In this document: positions 27,158 to 33,176 of the stretch, in pieces | Position numbering within the stretch: position 1 is the first letter of the stretch | Layout of the letters: the number at the start of each line of letters is the position of its first letter | NCBI RefSeq assembly: GCF_000153465.1 | Contig: NZ_CH672387.1 | Location: 2,519,903 to 2,583,902, forward strand | DNA length: 64,000 nt | Reading direction: 5' to 3' | DNA from: Aurantimonas manganoxydans SI85-9A1 | GTDB taxonomy: Bacteria; Pseudomonadota; Alphaproteobacteria; Rhizobiales; Rhizobiaceae | Program-made: the position numbers and the translations under genes | Notes under the pieces: model-generated | What the model saw: the letters and a program-made list of their open reading frames with translations, nothing else | Database searches by the model: none | What the model was told of the DNA's origin: nothing

Positions 27158-28522
27158 ATGTGGAACTCGCAATACGAATACGGTCTGGACGACGTCGCCA
27201 GTATCGTCGAGCGGATCGCGCAGGACATCGAAGCCGGCGTGCTGCGTCCCGGCGACCGGCTGCCGCCCCAGCGCGAGCTGGCGAACGGGCTTGGCGTCAA
27301 GCTGTCCACGATCAGTCGCGCCTATCGCGAGGCGGCGCAGCGGCGCCTGATCGGCGGCGAGATCGGTCGCGGCACCTATGTCCTGGCATCCAGCTCTGAT
27401 TCGCGGCTCTTCGCTCCCGACGTGTCTGCCGAGCGACTTGTGGACCTGTCCACCAACGTGCCCGTCGCCATGCCGGACGACACGGCGCTGGCCTTGCTGA
27501 TCGACCGCTTCAGTCCCGCCGAGCGGACGCAGATGACCGGCTATCCCGGCTGTGCACTCGTCCATCGTGCCGCGGAGGCGGTCGGCGACTGGATGGTCTG
27601 GCGCGGCATGACCCGCAGACCGGCGACGGTCGTGCCCTGCGCCGGCGCCCATGCGGCGCTGCAGGCGCTGCTGGTCCATGCGACCCGCGAGGGCGACGCG
27701 ATCCTTGTGGAATCTCTGACTTTCCCGGGCCTGAAGGCGCTGGCGCGGCAGTTGCGGCTGCGCCTGATCCCGGTGGAACTGGACGGCGAAGGCGTCACGC
27801 CGGAGGGCCTCGACGCCGCCGCGCGCAGTTCCACAGCCAGGCTGGCCGTGCTGATGCCCAACCTCCAGAACCCGACCGGCGCGGTCATGGGCGACGACCG
27901 GCGCCGGGCGATCGCCGGGATCGCCGAACGCCGCGACCTGACGATCATCGAGGACGATGCCTACGGGTCGCTGTCCGGCCGGCCGCCGCTGGCGGAGGAT
28001 CTGGGTCCGCGCGGCATCGTGGTCTCCAGCCTGTCGATGACGGTCATGCCGGGACTGCGCTTCGGCTTCGTCGCCGGCGACCATCCGATGCTGGCCGCCC
28101 TCAAGCGCAACCTGCATCTCACCTCCTGGATGATGACGCCGCTCTCCCTCTTGGCCGGATCGGCCTGGATCGAGGACGGCACAGCCGCCGCGCGCACCGC
28201 CTGGCAGGCCGACGCGGTCCGCGAGCGCTGGCGTCAGATGGGGCAGCATCTGGGCCCATCCGACGCGGTGGCCGCACCCCATGTCTGGCTCGGGGTCGAC
28301 GGCGATGCCGAGGAGGCCGCGACGCGGCTGCGCCAGTGCGGCGTCGCCGTGGTGCCGGCTGAAACCTTCGCCTCGGGACGCACCTTCCATTCGCGCGTGC
28401 GCGCCTCGCTGACGGCGGCCCCCACGCGTGCCGACCTCGACACGGCGCTGGCGATTCTCGCAGATTTCGGCGCGCGCCCCGCCGCGCTGCCCCGGGCCGG
28501 CGGTTCCACCCCCGCAAGATAG
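27158..28522 (+). CDS. MocR-type GntR/aminotransferase regulator lacking the cofactor lysine
   Basis: 454 residues. Residues 10-80 are a GntR winged helix (GVLRPGDRLPPQRELANGLGV, LSTISRAYREAAQRRLIGG); residues about 105-450 are a fold-type I aminotransferase-like domain with NLQNPTGAVM and IIEDDAYGSL (Asn and Asp/Tyr that hold PLP). The Schiff-base Lys of the SxxK motif is replaced by Met294 in SSLSMTVMPGLRFGF. It cannot form the usual internal aldimine. The divergent sugar dehydrogenase is the natural regulatory target. Confidence 0.85.
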   Translation: MWNSQYEYGLDDVASIVERIAQDIEAGVLRPGDRLPPQRELANGLGVKLSTISRAYREAAQRRLIGGEIGRGTYVLASSSDSRLFAPDVSAERLVDLSTNVPVAMPDDTALALLIDRFSPAERTQMTGYPGCALVHRAAEAVGDWMVWRGMTRRPATVVPCAGAHAALQALLVHATREGDAILVESLTFPGLKALARQLRLRLIPVELDGEGVTPEGLDAAARSSTARLAVLMPNLQNPTGAVMGDDRRRAIAGIAERRDLTIIEDDAYGSLSGRPPLAEDLGPRGIVVSSLSMTVMPGLRFGFVAGDHPMLAALKRNLHLTSWMMTPLSLLAGSAWIEDGTAAARTAWQADAVRERWRQMGQHLGPSDAVAAPHVWLGVDGDAEEAATRLRQCGVAVVPAETFASGRTFHSRVRASLTAAPTRADLDTALAILADFGARPAALPRAGGSTPAR

Positions 28523-28661: not shown

Positions 28662-30074
28662 GTGACGGCGTTCGACGAAATGCTTCTCGATGACGACAAT
28701 GTCCGGGAACCCTATGCGCGCTTCAACGAGTGGTTCCGGCAGCAGAACATCGAGGAACTGGCCGCCAAGACCAACGAGGCCGAGGATTTCTTCCGGCGCA
28801 CGGGCATCACCTTCAACGTCTATGGCGAGGCCGAGGCGGCCGAGCGGCTGATCCCGTTCGATCTCGTGCCGCGGATTATGGCCAAGGCCGAATGGGAGCT
28901 TCTCGCCGAGGGCATCGAGCAGCGGGTCCAGGCCCTCAACGCGTTTCTCTACGACATTTACCACGACCAGGAGATCGTGAAGGCGGGCAAGGTGCCCGAG
29001 CGCCTGATCGTCGGCAACGAGGCCTATCTGCCGCAGATGGAAGGCTTCCGGCCGCCCGGCGGGGTCTACACCCACATCATCGGCACCGACATCGTGCGGT
29101 GCGGCGAGAACGAGTTCTACGTCCTCGAAGACAATGCCCGCACACCGTCCGGCGTCTCGTACATGATCGAGAACCGGGAAACGATGATGCAGATGTTTCC
29201 CGAGCTGTTCGCGCAGAATCGCGTGCGGCCGGTCGAGACCTACCCGCATCACCTGCGCCGCTCGCTCGCCGCGGTCGCGCCGCCCGCCTGCGACGGTCCG
29301 CCGACCATCGCGGTGCTCACGCCCGGCATCCACAATTCCGCCTTCTACGAGCACGCCTTCCTCGCCGACCAGATGGGTGTCGAGCTGATCGAGGGCGCCG
29401 ACGCCAAGGTGATCGACGGCCGCATCCAGATGCGGACCACCGAGGGCTACAGGCCGATCGACGTCCTCTATCGCCGGGTCGACGACGAATATCTCGATCC
29501 CGAGGCGTTCAAGCCCGATTCCATGCTCGGCATTCCCGGGATCATGGAGGTCTACAAGAACGGCGGGATCACCATCGCCAACGCCCCCGGCACGGGCATC
29601 GCCGACGACAAGGCGATCTATTCCTACATGCCGGAAATCGTCGAGTTCTATACCGGCAAGCCGGCCCTTCTGCAGAACGTGCCGACTTGGCGCTGCGCCG
29701 AGGAAGACAGCCTCGCCTACGTCCTCGACAATCTGAAGGACCTCGTCGTCAAGGAAGTGCACGGCTCGGGCGGTTACGGCATGCTGGTCGGACCGGCGGC
29801 ATCGACGGCCGAACGCGAGGCCTTCGCGGAGAAGCTGCGGGCCAGGCCGCGCAACTACATCGCCCAGCCGACGCTGGCGCTGTCGACCGTGCCGATCCTG
29901 TCGGACCAGGGTCTCGCCCCGCGCCATGTCGATCTTCGCCCCTTCGTCCTCGTCTCCGACAAGGTCCGGATCATACCCGGCGGACTGACGCGCGTGGCTC
30001 TCAAGGAGGGCTCGCTCGTGGTCAATTCCAGCCAGGGCGGCGGCACCAAGGACACCTGGGTACTGAGGGACTGA
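28662..30074 (+). CDS. Circularly permuted ATP-grasp protein of the Anbu cluster
   Basis: 470 residues, COG2308 type. Recognisable parts: FDEMLLDDDNVREPYARFNEW, GTDIVRCGENEFYVLEDNARTPSGVSY, NAPGTGIADDKAIYSYMPEIV, VVKEVHGSGGYGMLVGP and LRPFVLVSDKVRIIPGGLTRVAL. ATP-grasp enzymes of this set are predicted amide-bond ligases acting on peptides or an unknown metabolite. GGAGGG stands 5 bases before GTG 28662, which fits the family start; longer frames run back into the MocR gene. Ten bases separate it from the alpha-E gene: an operon. Confidence 0.92.
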   Translation: MTAFDEMLLDDDNVREPYARFNEWFRQQNIEELAAKTNEAEDFFRRTGITFNVYGEAEAAERLIPFDLVPRIMAKAEWELLAEGIEQRVQALNAFLYDIYHDQEIVKAGKVPERLIVGNEAYLPQMEGFRPPGGVYTHIIGTDIVRCGENEFYVLEDNARTPSGVSYMIENRETMMQMFPELFAQNRVRPVETYPHHLRRSLAAVAPPACDGPPTIAVLTPGIHNSAFYEHAFLADQMGVELIEGADAKVIDGRIQMRTTEGYRPIDVLYRRVDDEYLDPEAFKPDSMLGIPGIMEVYKNGGITIANAPGTGIADDKAIYSYMPEIVEFYTGKPALLQNVPTWRCAEEDSLAYVLDNLKDLVVKEVHGSGGYGMLVGPAASTAEREAFAEKLRARPRNYIAQPTLALSTVPILSDQGLAPRHVDLRPFVLVSDKVRIIPGGLTRVALKEGSLVVNSSQGGGTKDTWVLRD

Positions 30075-30084
30075 AGCGAAGCAC

Positions 30085-31035
30085 ATGGCACTACTCGGAC
30101 GCACCGCCAACGGCCTGTTCTGGATGTCCCGCTATATCGAGCGGGCCGAGAACATGGCCCGCCTCGTCGACGCCGGACAGCGGCTGTCGATGACCAACCT
30201 CTCCTCGGACGAACCCGACGAATGGCAGTCGGTACTGGTCTCGGCCGGTGTCGAGGCCGCCTATCTGGCCAAATACACCGAATACGACACCGCCTCGATC
30301 ATCGACTTCCTGCTGCGCGACCGGGACAATCCGTCGAGCGTGCGCTCGTCGATCGACACGGCACGGATGAACGGGCGGATGGTGCGGACCGCCCTCACCC
30401 GCGACCTGTGGGAAACGATCAACGAGAGCTGGCTGATCATCAAGAGCCGGCTCGACAAGCCGCTGAACCCGGTCGAACTGACAGCCATCCTGGAACTGGT
30501 CAAACGCCAGACGGCGCTGATCCGGGGCGTCTTCCACGGCACGATGCTGCGCAACGAGATCTTCGACTTCTGCAATCTCGGCGCCTTCATCGAGCGGGCC
30601 GACAACACGGCCCGCATCCTCGACGTGAAATACTGGGTGCTTCTGCCCGAGCATTCCTCCGTCGGCTCGTCGCTCGACAATTTCCAGTGGGCATCGATCC
30701 TGCGCTCGGTCTCGGCGCATCGCGCCTATGCCTGGGAATATGACGGCGAATACCGCGCGATGGACATCATCGACTTCCTGATGCTGAACCGCAGGCTGCC
30801 GCGCTCGCTGGCCTATTGCTACCTCTGCATCGAGGAAAGCCTGAAATATCTGAACCGGAACTACGAGACGCAGCACAAATGCTCCCGCACGGCCAGCGAT
30901 CTCACACGCAGGCTGTCGAATGCGTCGGTGAAGGAGATCATCGACGGCGGCATGCACGAGTTCCTCGAGAACTTCATCATCGAGAACAACCGGGTGGCCA
31001 GGGAAATCGCCGAGAGCTACCGCTTCTACGCCTGA
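30085..31035 (+). CDS. Alpha-E domain protein (DUF403)
   Basis: 316 residues, almost entirely helical, with the family start LLGRTANGLFWMSRYIERAENMARLVDA and the repeated acidic-basic core (LGAFIERADNTARILDVKYW, SLAYCYLCIEESLKYLN). COG2307 proteins are always linked to ATP-grasp and transglutaminase genes of the Anbu-type cluster; their biochemical role is unknown. Forms an operon with the preceding ATP-grasp gene. Confidence 0.92.
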   Translation: MALLGRTANGLFWMSRYIERAENMARLVDAGQRLSMTNLSSDEPDEWQSVLVSAGVEAAYLAKYTEYDTASIIDFLLRDRDNPSSVRSSIDTARMNGRMVRTALTRDLWETINESWLIIKSRLDKPLNPVELTAILELVKRQTALIRGVFHGTMLRNEIFDFCNLGAFIERADNTARILDVKYWVLLPEHSSVGSSLDNFQWASILRSVSAHRAYAWEYDGEYRAMDIIDFLMLNRRLPRSLAYCYLCIEESLKYLNRNYETQHKCSRTASDLTRRLSNASVKEIIDGGMHEFLENFIIENNRVAREIAESYRFYA

Positions 31036-31100
31036 TAGTGGCAACTCGGCTTCGCTGTCCGACGAACCGTACCCCTCACGGTCGAAAATTATTGCGGAAG

Positions 31101-31133
31101 GCGCGCGGCCTGCACAAAGATGCAGCCGCGCGC
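31101..31133 (+). promoter_or_regulatory. Large hairpin between the alpha-E gene and the Anbu gene
   Basis: GCGCGCGGCCTGCA pairs with TGCAGCCGCGCGC around a 6-7 base loop, with one bulged C. It lies 66 bases after the alpha-E stop and 44 bases before the Anbu start. There is no U tract, so it may be an mRNA-processing or translation-control hairpin rather than a terminator. Confidence 0.5.
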
Positions 31134-31176
31134 GGGCAGCTGATTCGCCCTGCGCCCCAGAGGGATGTCAGCCAAG

Positions 31177-31908
31177 ATGACCTATTGCGTGGGGCTCCTC
31201 GTCGATCGTGGCCTCGTCTTCATGTCGGATACCCGCACCAATGCGGGCATCGACAACATTTCCGTCGTCTCGAAGATGAAGACCTGGGAGGTGCCGGGCG
31301 AGCGCTTCCTGTGCCTGCTCAGCGCCGGCAATCTCGCCACCACCCAGTCGACGGTGTCGCTTCTGGAAGAGCGTCTGCTTGCCCCGGCAGAGCGCCAGCC
31401 GGCGATCCTGACGCAGCCGTCGATGTTCCAGACCGCCAAGCTCGTCGGCGAGACGATCAAGGAGGTCATCTCCTACACGACGCCGGCCGGCCAGTCGGCC
31501 GATGCGCTGTTCTCGGGCACCTTCATCCTCGGCGGCCAGATCAAGGGCGGGCGTCCACGCCTGTTCCTGATCTATCCGGAAGGCAATTTCATCGAGGCCG
31601 GGCCCGACAATCCGTTCTTCCAGATCGGCGAGCACAAATACGGCCGGCCGATCATCATCCGCACCTATGATCCGCAGATGAGCCTGGAAGACTGCGCCAA
31701 GCTGTTGCTGGTCTCCTTTGATTCGACCATCCGCTCGAACCTGTCGGTCGGGGCGCCGATCGACATGCAGTTCTACGAGACCGACACGATGGTGGCCGGC
31801 TACAAGCGCCGCTTCGAATTGTCGGACGAGTATTACCAGCAGATATCGGGCGGCTGGTCCGATGCGCTCAAGGATGCCTTCGATTGTCTGCCGCCCTTCC
31901 AGCGTTAG
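31177..31908 (+). CDS. Anbu, bacterial proteasome-like peptidase
   Basis: 243 residues, COG3484. Removal of the initiator Met from MTYCVGLL exposes Thr1, the proteasome-type nucleophile; Asp in FMSDTRTNAG and Lys in VSKMKTWEV are the partner residues. Anbu subunits assemble into open ring or lock-washer structures; the physiological substrate is unknown. An upstream in-frame ATG (31165) touches GAGGG directly, while ATG 31177 lies 12 bases from it, and only the latter gives the Met-Thr start needed for catalysis, so I use it. The usual cluster transglutaminase is missing. Confidence 0.93.
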   Translation: MTYCVGLLVDRGLVFMSDTRTNAGIDNISVVSKMKTWEVPGERFLCLLSAGNLATTQSTVSLLEERLLAPAERQPAILTQPSMFQTAKLVGETIKEVISYTTPAGQSADALFSGTFILGGQIKGGRPRLFLIYPEGNFIEAGPDNPFFQIGEHKYGRPIIIRTYDPQMSLEDCAKLLLVSFDSTIRSNLSVGAPIDMQFYETDTMVAGYKRRFELSDEYYQQISGGWSDALKDAFDCLPPFQR

Positions 31909-32002: not shown

Positions 32003-32792
32003 ATGACGCGAACACTCACCCACCAGCCCTTGACGAGACGCGGATTCTGGAAGCTGGCAGGCATCACGCTGTGCGGGGTCCTGTCGTGCATGGCGGTGGC
32101 GCTTGCCTACAACGCGGCGCTGTTCCGCAATGCCGATCCCGAGGCCTTCCGGCTGGCGATGATCTGCGCCGTGGTCGTCCCCACCATTCTCGGAGGGCCG
32201 CTCTTCGTCTTCCTGTCGCTGAAGCTGCGCGAGCTGCGCATCCTGAACCGCCAGCTCGCGATCGTCGCCGCCCATGACGGCCTGACGACGCTGCTCAACC
32301 GGCGGGCCTTCACCGAGCGTGTCGAGGCGCGGCTGGAATCCATGGCCACGGATGGCCTGGCCGGCGCGCTGTTCCTCATCGACGCGGATTTCTTCAAGGC
32401 GATCAACGACCGATACGGCCACGCCACCGGCGACCGGGCGCTCAAGGCGATCGCCCTGCGGCTGCAGGATTCGGTCCGCAAGGGCGACGTCATCGGTCGT
32501 CTGGGCGGCGAGGAATTCGGCGTGCTGCTCGTTGACGTGGCCCCTGGCGAAGGAGATCGCCGAACGGATGCGCGAGGCCGTGGCGACGATGGAATTGTCG
32601 TCGCCGGAGGGCAAGCCGGTGCCGGTATCGGTCAGTATCGGCGGCGTCATCTTCGACCGGCCGGTCGGCTACAGCTATCTCTACCAAGAGGCGGACAACC
32701 GGCTCTACGAGGCCAAGGCCCGCGGACGGAACCGCGTGGTCGTGCGCAACACGGCCCCCGTCGCCGCCGAGCCGGATCGGGTCAGCGCCTGA
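32003..32792 (+). pseudogene. Diguanylate cyclase (GGDEF), frameshifted
   Basis: The N-terminus has two membrane helices (GITLCGVLSCMAVALAYNAAL; LAMICAVVVPTILGGPLFVF), then a GGDEF domain with LFLIDADFFKAINDRYGHATGD and the active site GGEEF. Directly after GVLLVDVA the frame breaks: four C at 32541-32544 where three would keep the frame. The remaining domain (AKEIAERMREAVATMEL, VSVSIGGVIF, YLYQEADNRLYEAKARGRNR) continues in the next frame to the stop at 32792. As given, the product is a truncated cyclase with an unrelated tail. A one-base insertion or a sequence error explains it. Confidence 0.88.
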
Positions 32793-32810
32793 GGCCGGCG
32801 CTGGCCTGCC

Positions 32811-33176
32811 TCAGCGTTCGCGGCGCAGACCCTTGGCGTCAAGCTCGGCCAGATAGGCCTGCCAGCGCGTGTCCTTCTCGCGGAACAGCTCCGCAAGGTA
32901 GCTCCAGCTGAAGATGCCGGTATCGTGACCGTCGTCGAAGCCGATGCGCACGGCATAATTTCCGACCGGCGCCACAGAGGCGATGGCCACGTCGATCTTG
33001 CCGCCGACGGTCTTGCGCTGGTCCGGCGAATGGCCCTGAACCTCCGCAGACGGCGACATCACCCGCAGCATTTCGGCCGACAGATCCTGGCGAGCGCCGC
33101 CGGCCTGGACGAGCATCAGCGTGCGCCGGTCGGGCGTGACGCGAATTTCCTGTGGCGGCGCGACGGTGTCGGTCAT
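32811..33176 (-). CDS. DUF971 domain protein
   Basis: 121 residues. DUF971 (gamma-butyrobetaine hydroxylase-like N-terminal fold) is seen in [36 protein letters not shown] and [19 protein letters not shown]. It occurs beside Fe-S or molybdenum cofactor genes; here it is divergent from moaA with 140 bases between the starts. Conserved function unknown. ATG 33176 has GGGAGG upstream. Confidence 0.85.

Follow-up and report, generated by a model that had tools for sequence, protein, structure and literature searches.

Anbu, a peptidase family with an open dodecameric or helical assembly, has been proposed as an early form of the proteasome subunit, and we know of no substrate for it. Transglutaminases (TGs) are Cys-dependent enzymes acting as amide hydrolases or transferases. 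In the described Anbu operon of Yersinia bercovieri the genes follow the canonical order ATP-grasp, alpha-E, TG and Anbu, with Thr1 (after Met removal), Asp17 and Lys32 as the catalytic residues of Anbu (PMC6376114; this and the other papers are cited from the available part of their text). A comparable gene set in Burkholderia cenocepacia H111, I35_5080-83, is NtrC-dependent (listed between -6.0 and -9.4 in the table for the ntrC mutant) and shares the DUF404/DUF407, DUF403 and TG-like genes, but its TG-like genes number two, and the text available names no Anbu (PMC5491218). The same domains correlate with urea metabolism in marine metagenomes (PMC3597751), and Anbu is reported to be upregulated in nitrogen-limited P. 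putida (PMC5666114). No description of TG-less Anbu clusters was found among the open-licence papers searched. Here we describe such a cluster in a 64,000-nucleotide stretch of Aurantimonas manganoxydans SI85-9A1 (G000:C1:2519903-2583902, referred to as the window), part of a 4.33-Mb genome of 22 contigs.

The ATP-grasp, alpha-E and Anbu genes of this locus (Table 1) are consecutive and intact, and there is no TG between alpha-E and Anbu. An earlier note, made from the sequence alone, had described the region in these terms, and Pfam domains in three intact reading frames, together with the lack of any TG gene at 28662-31908, bear this out. As in the four-gene operon, represented by Y. bercovieri and by 34 named loci, ATP-grasp is first, alpha-E second and Anbu last, with the same families, order and strand, while the TG between alpha-E and Anbu is missing. 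The ATP-grasp protein matches the CP_ATPgrasp_2 family (536 bits; PF14403: 4.9e-161; PF04174: 4.2e-142) and has a solved relative, 3n6x (PDB sequence search; e-value: 6e-193), with many relatives aligning from its residue 1. We take it to be COG2308-like and the alpha-E protein to be COG2307-like. The AlphaFold model of alpha-E has a mean predicted local distance difference test score of 91 and consists of helices only; no convincing solved relative was found by PDB sequence search (best e-value: 0.92), and the Foldseek matches considered as fold relatives (best e-value: 0.23; template modelling score about 0.2) were rejected as not meaningful. The last protein contains a Proteasome domain (28.8 bits; cut-off: 22.4), and its relatives by PDB sequence search are the solved Anbu structures 5loy, 5nyj, 5nyf, 5nyw and 5lox, of which 5loy is nearest (e-value: 4e-88). 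Thr1, Asp17 and Lys32 are invariant across ten aligned Anbu rows. Two candidate ATG codons, at 31165 and 31177, would leave gaps of 129 and 141 bases after alpha-E, respectively; the latter is the likely start since relatives align from the second ATG (MTYC...), in agreement with the gap of 141 bases given in the earlier note. At the Anbu gene, Aurantimonas coralicida DSM 14790 is the closest of the named relatives (98%).

Table 1. Features of the three-gene Anbu cluster of A. manganoxydans SI85-9A1 (window positions)
Feature	Position	Strand	Details
ATP-grasp, circularly permuted type 2	28662..30074	+	470 amino acids; GTG start inferred
Alpha-E helical protein	30085..31035	+	316 amino acids; PF04168 1.5e-88, Alpha-E 298 bits (Pfam)
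Gap between alpha-E and Anbu	31036..31176	.	Site of the operon TG in 34 named loci outside the Aurantimonadaceae type
Anbu, proteasome-type N-terminal nucleophile (Ntn) hydrolase	31177..31908	+	243 amino acids from MTYC; PF00227

The TG-less state is shared by all sampled members of the family. Among the named loci, which are the best 80 of 281 and thus cover the nearest part only, a TG before Anbu is absent from all 46 loci of the Aurantimonadaceae type and present in all 34 others, so that the premise of the earlier note that known clusters carry a TG between alpha-E and Anbu agrees with the published order (PMC6376114) and with these 34 loci. The TG-less loci are titled Aurantimonas, Jiella, Aureimonas, Fulvimarina, Mangrovicella, Consotaella and Antarcticirhabdus, and include an Aurantimonadaceae metagenome-assembled genome (MAG) and one MAG titled Rhizobiaceae (L057), while those bearing a TG are titled Phyllobacterium, Hoeflea, Nitratireductor, Mesorhizobium, a Devosia MAG and others. 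One of the 46, the 12.7-kb locus L044, has no alpha-E in view, although its genome (G034, as judged by position) carries alpha-E on another contig. In 80 related genomes, 50 Anbu loci were found after a 20-bit second Anbu hit of G014 was dropped, comprising 34 four-gene, 11 three-gene and 5 other loci. In a quick tree of 84 Anbu rows, from which unclassed loci were excluded (5/50 from the relatives and 16/55 from the class set described below), the eleven three-gene rows of the Aurantimonadaceae type form one clade (Shimodaira-Hasegawa-like approximate likelihood ratio test [SH-aLRT]: 100; the only support calculated for this and the TG tree). The tree calls for at least seven changes between the three- and four-gene states, five of them forced by the starred branches.

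The same state recurs outside this family. A class-wide sample of 240 Alphaproteobacteria genomes yielded, apart from our own locus and with the Anbu locus of G154 left out, 55 higher-scoring Anbu loci, of which 30 are four-gene, nine three-gene and 14 orphan or rearranged, while in the remaining two a TG lies about 1.1 kb upstream of Anbu with alpha-E outside the short view. Among the nine genomes with a three-gene locus, eight (G136, G161, G170, G174, G207, G261, G276 and G282) are without an operon TG (best score: 120 bits). In the ninth, G246 (G246:C1:598258-599999 and L232), an operon TG adjoins one alpha-E and a separate ATP-grasp/alpha-E/Anbu cluster is without TG, such that the operon looks split into two. 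An operon-TG fragment with two stops is located near Anbu in G264 (C100:26623-26817, L288; alpha-E not in view), where loss of the TG is apparently under way in another family. Separately, a TG in a 1,160-amino acid frame, perhaps of the DUF2126 fusion type, adjoins the three-gene cluster of G170 (L242) in divergent orientation. Judged from gene content and phylogeny, TG-less Anbu clusters also arose elsewhere in the Alphaproteobacteria and are thus not special to A. manganoxydans. We conclude that the known operon has a three-gene variant, found across this family and recurring in others.

The assembly was also searched for an Anbu-type TG elsewhere, which the earlier note had named as a finding that would overturn its interpretation, and none was found. 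Three PF01841 proteins score above the cut-off, with one further weak match. One is a stand-alone protein of 269 amino acids encoded near C1:745.7 kb, and the other two, a TG-DUF2126 fusion and a stand-alone TG of 298 amino acids (TG2), are encoded in a second cluster around C1:3.48 Mb (G000:C1:3481778-3489403, corresponding to L008:5779-13404), where a gene for a fused ATP-grasp/alpha-E protein separates the two. An ion-channel-like gene, named by eye, lies inside this cluster on the opposite strand. The second cluster thus resembles the Anbu cluster in its ligase and alpha-E modules and differs in having TGs and a putative DUF2126 amidoligase and no Anbu, the only Anbu match of the genome being the copy in the window. 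None of the PF01841 proteins of the genome is of the operon type according to an operon-TG profile, built from 13 rows, and the TG tree. Across 13 Aurantimonadaceae-type genomes, picked by an Anbu identity of at least 75%, this profile scores at most 118.7 bits, versus at least 375 bits in all nine four-gene genomes. In addition, five of these nine (G020, G022, G028, G037 and G043) have an extra short TG paralogue at about 92-105 bits and a long-frame one at about 69-98 bits; the profile found neither in the remaining four. The quick TG tree (69 rows) unites the operon TGs in one clade (SH-aLRT: 99) that contains no Aurantimonadaceae-type row, and each main class of the remaining TGs groups with or beside paralogues of the four-gene genomes; the deeper joins are not to be trusted because of long-branch warnings. 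TG2, about 40% identical to the operon TG over the core, is grouped apart from it. By profile score and tree position, the TGs remaining in the Aurantimonadaceae-type genomes are separate paralogues. Both the Anbu-linked and the second, fused ATP-grasp/alpha-E copy are kept in 10 of these 13 genomes.

We further considered whether the gap between alpha-E and Anbu holds a substitute for the TG or a trace of it, as the earlier note had suggested that the missing enzyme might have been replaced. Such a replacement within the cluster finds no support, with no gene inside the window gap, and tblastn against the Aurantimonadaceae-type gaps gave 84 TG hits (best: 25.4 bits) against 70 in a reversed-sequence control (best: 22.7 bits), none of them clearly above the control. 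The gaps of L051, L052, L055, L056 and L065 hold unrelated genes or long frames, named by eye from their translations, which were rejected as replacements, as they are not common to the loci; the sole gap content in common is TadE-like frames in two Jiella loci. Measured between the ends of profile matches, the spacer from alpha-E to Anbu spans 112-3,835 bases in 45 TG-less loci (median: 189), in contrast to 33-169 bases from TG to Anbu in the 34 four-gene loci (median: 35.5), and gaps of more than 1 kb before Anbu occur in 5/45 versus 0/34 loci (Fisher p: 0.067). The strong GC hairpin reported in this gap does exist, at 31101-31133, and its pattern occurs once in the genome; the folding of the 141 bases is only slightly better than that of shuffled sequences (z: -1.3; 21/200 shuffles equally good). 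Beyond the window it was seen in A. coralicida (L041) only, among 14 gap sequences read by eye of the 45 measured. A regulatory role was therefore rejected, the element being absent from the gaps read beyond the sister strain and its folding unexceptional, and the hairpin looks incidental. Sigma-54 sites in the window are at chance level (10 matches with at most two mismatches; 10.3 expected); one such match immediately follows Anbu, on the minus strand, while the nearest upstream of ATP-grasp, at 27741, falls within the preceding gene. Directly after Anbu is a GGDEF (diguanylate cyclase-like) gene, its domain named by eye, in two frames (32003-32911 and 32319-32792, plus strand). The A. coralicida copy (L041:6839-7417) ends prematurely at another point than that in the window, and since the early ends differ in position the gene may be decaying in both strains.

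The three remaining proteins are well conserved. Columns occupied by one residue in at least 97% of four-gene rows and by the same residue in at least 90% of Aurantimonadaceae-type rows amount to 158 for ATP-grasp, 44 for alpha-E and 47 for Anbu, versus two, four and two columns, respectively, with a different residue conserved at 85% in each group. Proline 225 of alpha-E was considered as a signature of TG loss, being present in all 60 rows of the first four-gene set, and was discarded as a lineage trait because it is found in 93/98 rows of a larger four-gene set and is kept in 6/9 of the other three-gene rows. Evolutionary distances, compared over the 80 named loci (three without a full ATP-grasp and one without a full alpha-E), give slopes against ATP-grasp of 1.88 in three-gene versus 2.03 in four-gene loci for alpha-E, and of 1.31 versus 1.59 for Anbu; these ratios give no sign that any one partner changed its rate once the TG was lost. 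The median ratio of nonsynonymous to synonymous substitution rates (dN/dS) lies well under 1 for three-gene and four-gene loci alike. The reduced three-gene set is thus probably still functional, and the proposal of the earlier note that it bears on which part is dispensable gains substance, with a TG-less clade that keeps the other three genes conserved. In Jiella pelagia the ATP-grasp gene (L107:3416-4824) consists of two nearly abutting pieces, which suggests a frameshift or sequencing error.

The distribution of the genes across the class-wide sample points to their functional grouping. Alpha-E was detected in 83 of the 240 genomes (threshold e-value: 1e-15), Anbu in 63 (1e-20) and the operon TG in 41 (1e-45), with divergent TGs near Anbu in G104, G236 and G120 counted as without operon TG at this threshold. 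Alpha-E is present in 62/63 Anbu genomes versus 21/177 genomes without Anbu, and in 40/41 operon-TG genomes versus 43/199 others; the single exception in both counts is G226, where the TG begins at base 45 of the contig, that is, at a contig end. Anbu occurs without the operon TG in 28/63 genomes, the operon TG without Anbu in 6/41, and alpha-E without either in 15 genomes. From these counts, the ligase/alpha-E pair looks like a hub to which Anbu and TG are each tied, and tied loosely to each other. Fusion to ATP-grasp in the second cluster, together with co-occurrence, leads us to infer that alpha-E is the partner of ATP-grasp.

We favour, with some confidence, the explanation that the window holds an Anbu operon from which the TG was lost a single time, in the ancestor of the Aurantimonadaceae, with no other cluster gene taking over, and that the ATP-grasp, alpha-E and Anbu proteins keep working as a unit. 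ATP-grasp, with alpha-E as a near-obligate helical partner, would form an amide or peptide bond; the product, or proteins bearing it, would be acted on by Anbu as a Thr-dependent Ntn hydrolase. The TG would serve as a second, accessory enzyme on this product, and lineages may keep it, drop it or place it in a separate ligase cluster. At the level of gene content, the comparison shows loss of the TG in a single clade, no orthologue elsewhere in the searched assemblies, conservation of the three other genes, and that Anbu and TG each co-occur with alpha-E. The product of the ligase as a common substrate of Anbu and TG, and the accessory part of the latter, may be inferred from these patterns, and the nitrogen links of related systems fit, by analogy, a nitrogen-related amide product. 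Several points weigh against this explanation. Anbu has shown no peptidase activity on proteasome substrates in published tests and the Y. bercovieri operon proteins no specific mutual interaction, according to the available part of PMC6376114, and Fuchs et al. rate a role of Anbu in peptide synthesis as less likely (PMC5666114, in the text available). Median dN/dS, uncorrected, is higher in three-gene loci (ATP-grasp: 0.18; alpha-E: 0.30; Anbu: 0.21) than in four-gene loci (0.10, 0.20 and 0.18, respectively), which may reflect mild relaxation or a saturation artefact in GC-rich genomes. Within alpha-E genomes the operon TG is weakly associated with Anbu (34/62 with Anbu versus 6/21 without; p: 0.046), and the co-occurrence counts ignore kinship. 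Furthermore, around twelve low-scoring Anbu loci (L257-L268; 96-121 bits), perhaps of the Anbu-2 type described in PMC5666114, neither ATP-grasp nor alpha-E nor the operon TG lies within about 4 kb, while alpha-E is carried elsewhere in their genomes. Finally, a TG domain (PF01841) is retained in all twelve scanned genomes with a TG-less cluster, G246 with its operon TG among them.

This retention of some TG domain in every scanned genome means that a TG could serve in trans, and it bears on a somewhat doubtful alternative, in which the TG function is still needed and supplied by the TGs of the second cluster, such that loss of the operon TG is tolerated only where that cluster is present. As the mark of the second cluster we took a second alpha-E in the class sample (for G144 located in a short frame) and, for nine relatives, paralogous TGs, with 25/84 tree rows without such data. 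A second alpha-E is found in the genomes of 9/10 three-gene versus 6/30 four-gene rows of the class sample (Fisher p: 1.5e-4), the tenth three-gene row being G170 with the TG frame adjoining its cluster. However, kinship-independent pairs number five only (about 2 for, 0.1 against and 3 with no difference) and are not significant, G002, G005 and G006, all of the same genus, lack a second alpha-E and TG2 and have a single long TG fusion frame only, and TG2 itself stands apart from the operon TG in sequence and in the tree. Help in trans from the second-cluster TGs is possible. It is unlikely that Anbu acts as a general protease when nitrogen is scarce, with co-regulation as its only link to the ligase genes, in which case TG loss would be uninformative on a shared pathway. 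Fuchs et al. argue for protein degradation (PMC5666114, in the part available), and Anbu has moved away from alpha-E in the five family loci with gaps above 1 kb and in L044; against this stands the near-constant company of alpha-E in Anbu genomes, where the one exception is cut at a contig end. A misassembly, raised in the earlier note as a possible refutation, or decay of the TG in this strain only, has next to no probability: the same junction is found in a separate assembly, that of the sister strain A. coralicida DSM 14790, by which misassembly is excluded, the TG is likewise absent from the other Aurantimonadaceae-type loci, and the gaps hold no TG remnant clearly above the control.

Taken as a whole, the earlier interpretation is partly supported. 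The best reading of the locus is that ATP-grasp and alpha-E form a hub whose product would be acted on by two separable enzymes, TG and Anbu. Extending this, we tentatively consider that the pair may be a general amide-making hub with Anbu and TG as interchangeable or parallel output enzymes, in which labour would be divided in most searched Aurantimonadaceae, one hub copy feeding Anbu alone and the fused second copy feeding TG alone; G246 looks like a second such case. While the three-gene cluster does not by itself reveal the substrate, it makes the need for the TG directly testable, and split-cluster strains would allow separate knockout of the TG branch and the Anbu branch. That alpha-E accompanies Anbu in 62 of 63 genomes further suggests that the real substrate may have been missing where Anbu was assayed by itself on proteasome peptides. 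The absence of the TG from the sampled family members, in which the rest of the set looks intact, suggests that it is an optional extra in this gene set, and the TG-less clade points to ATP-grasp, alpha-E and Anbu as the minimal set for reconstitution.

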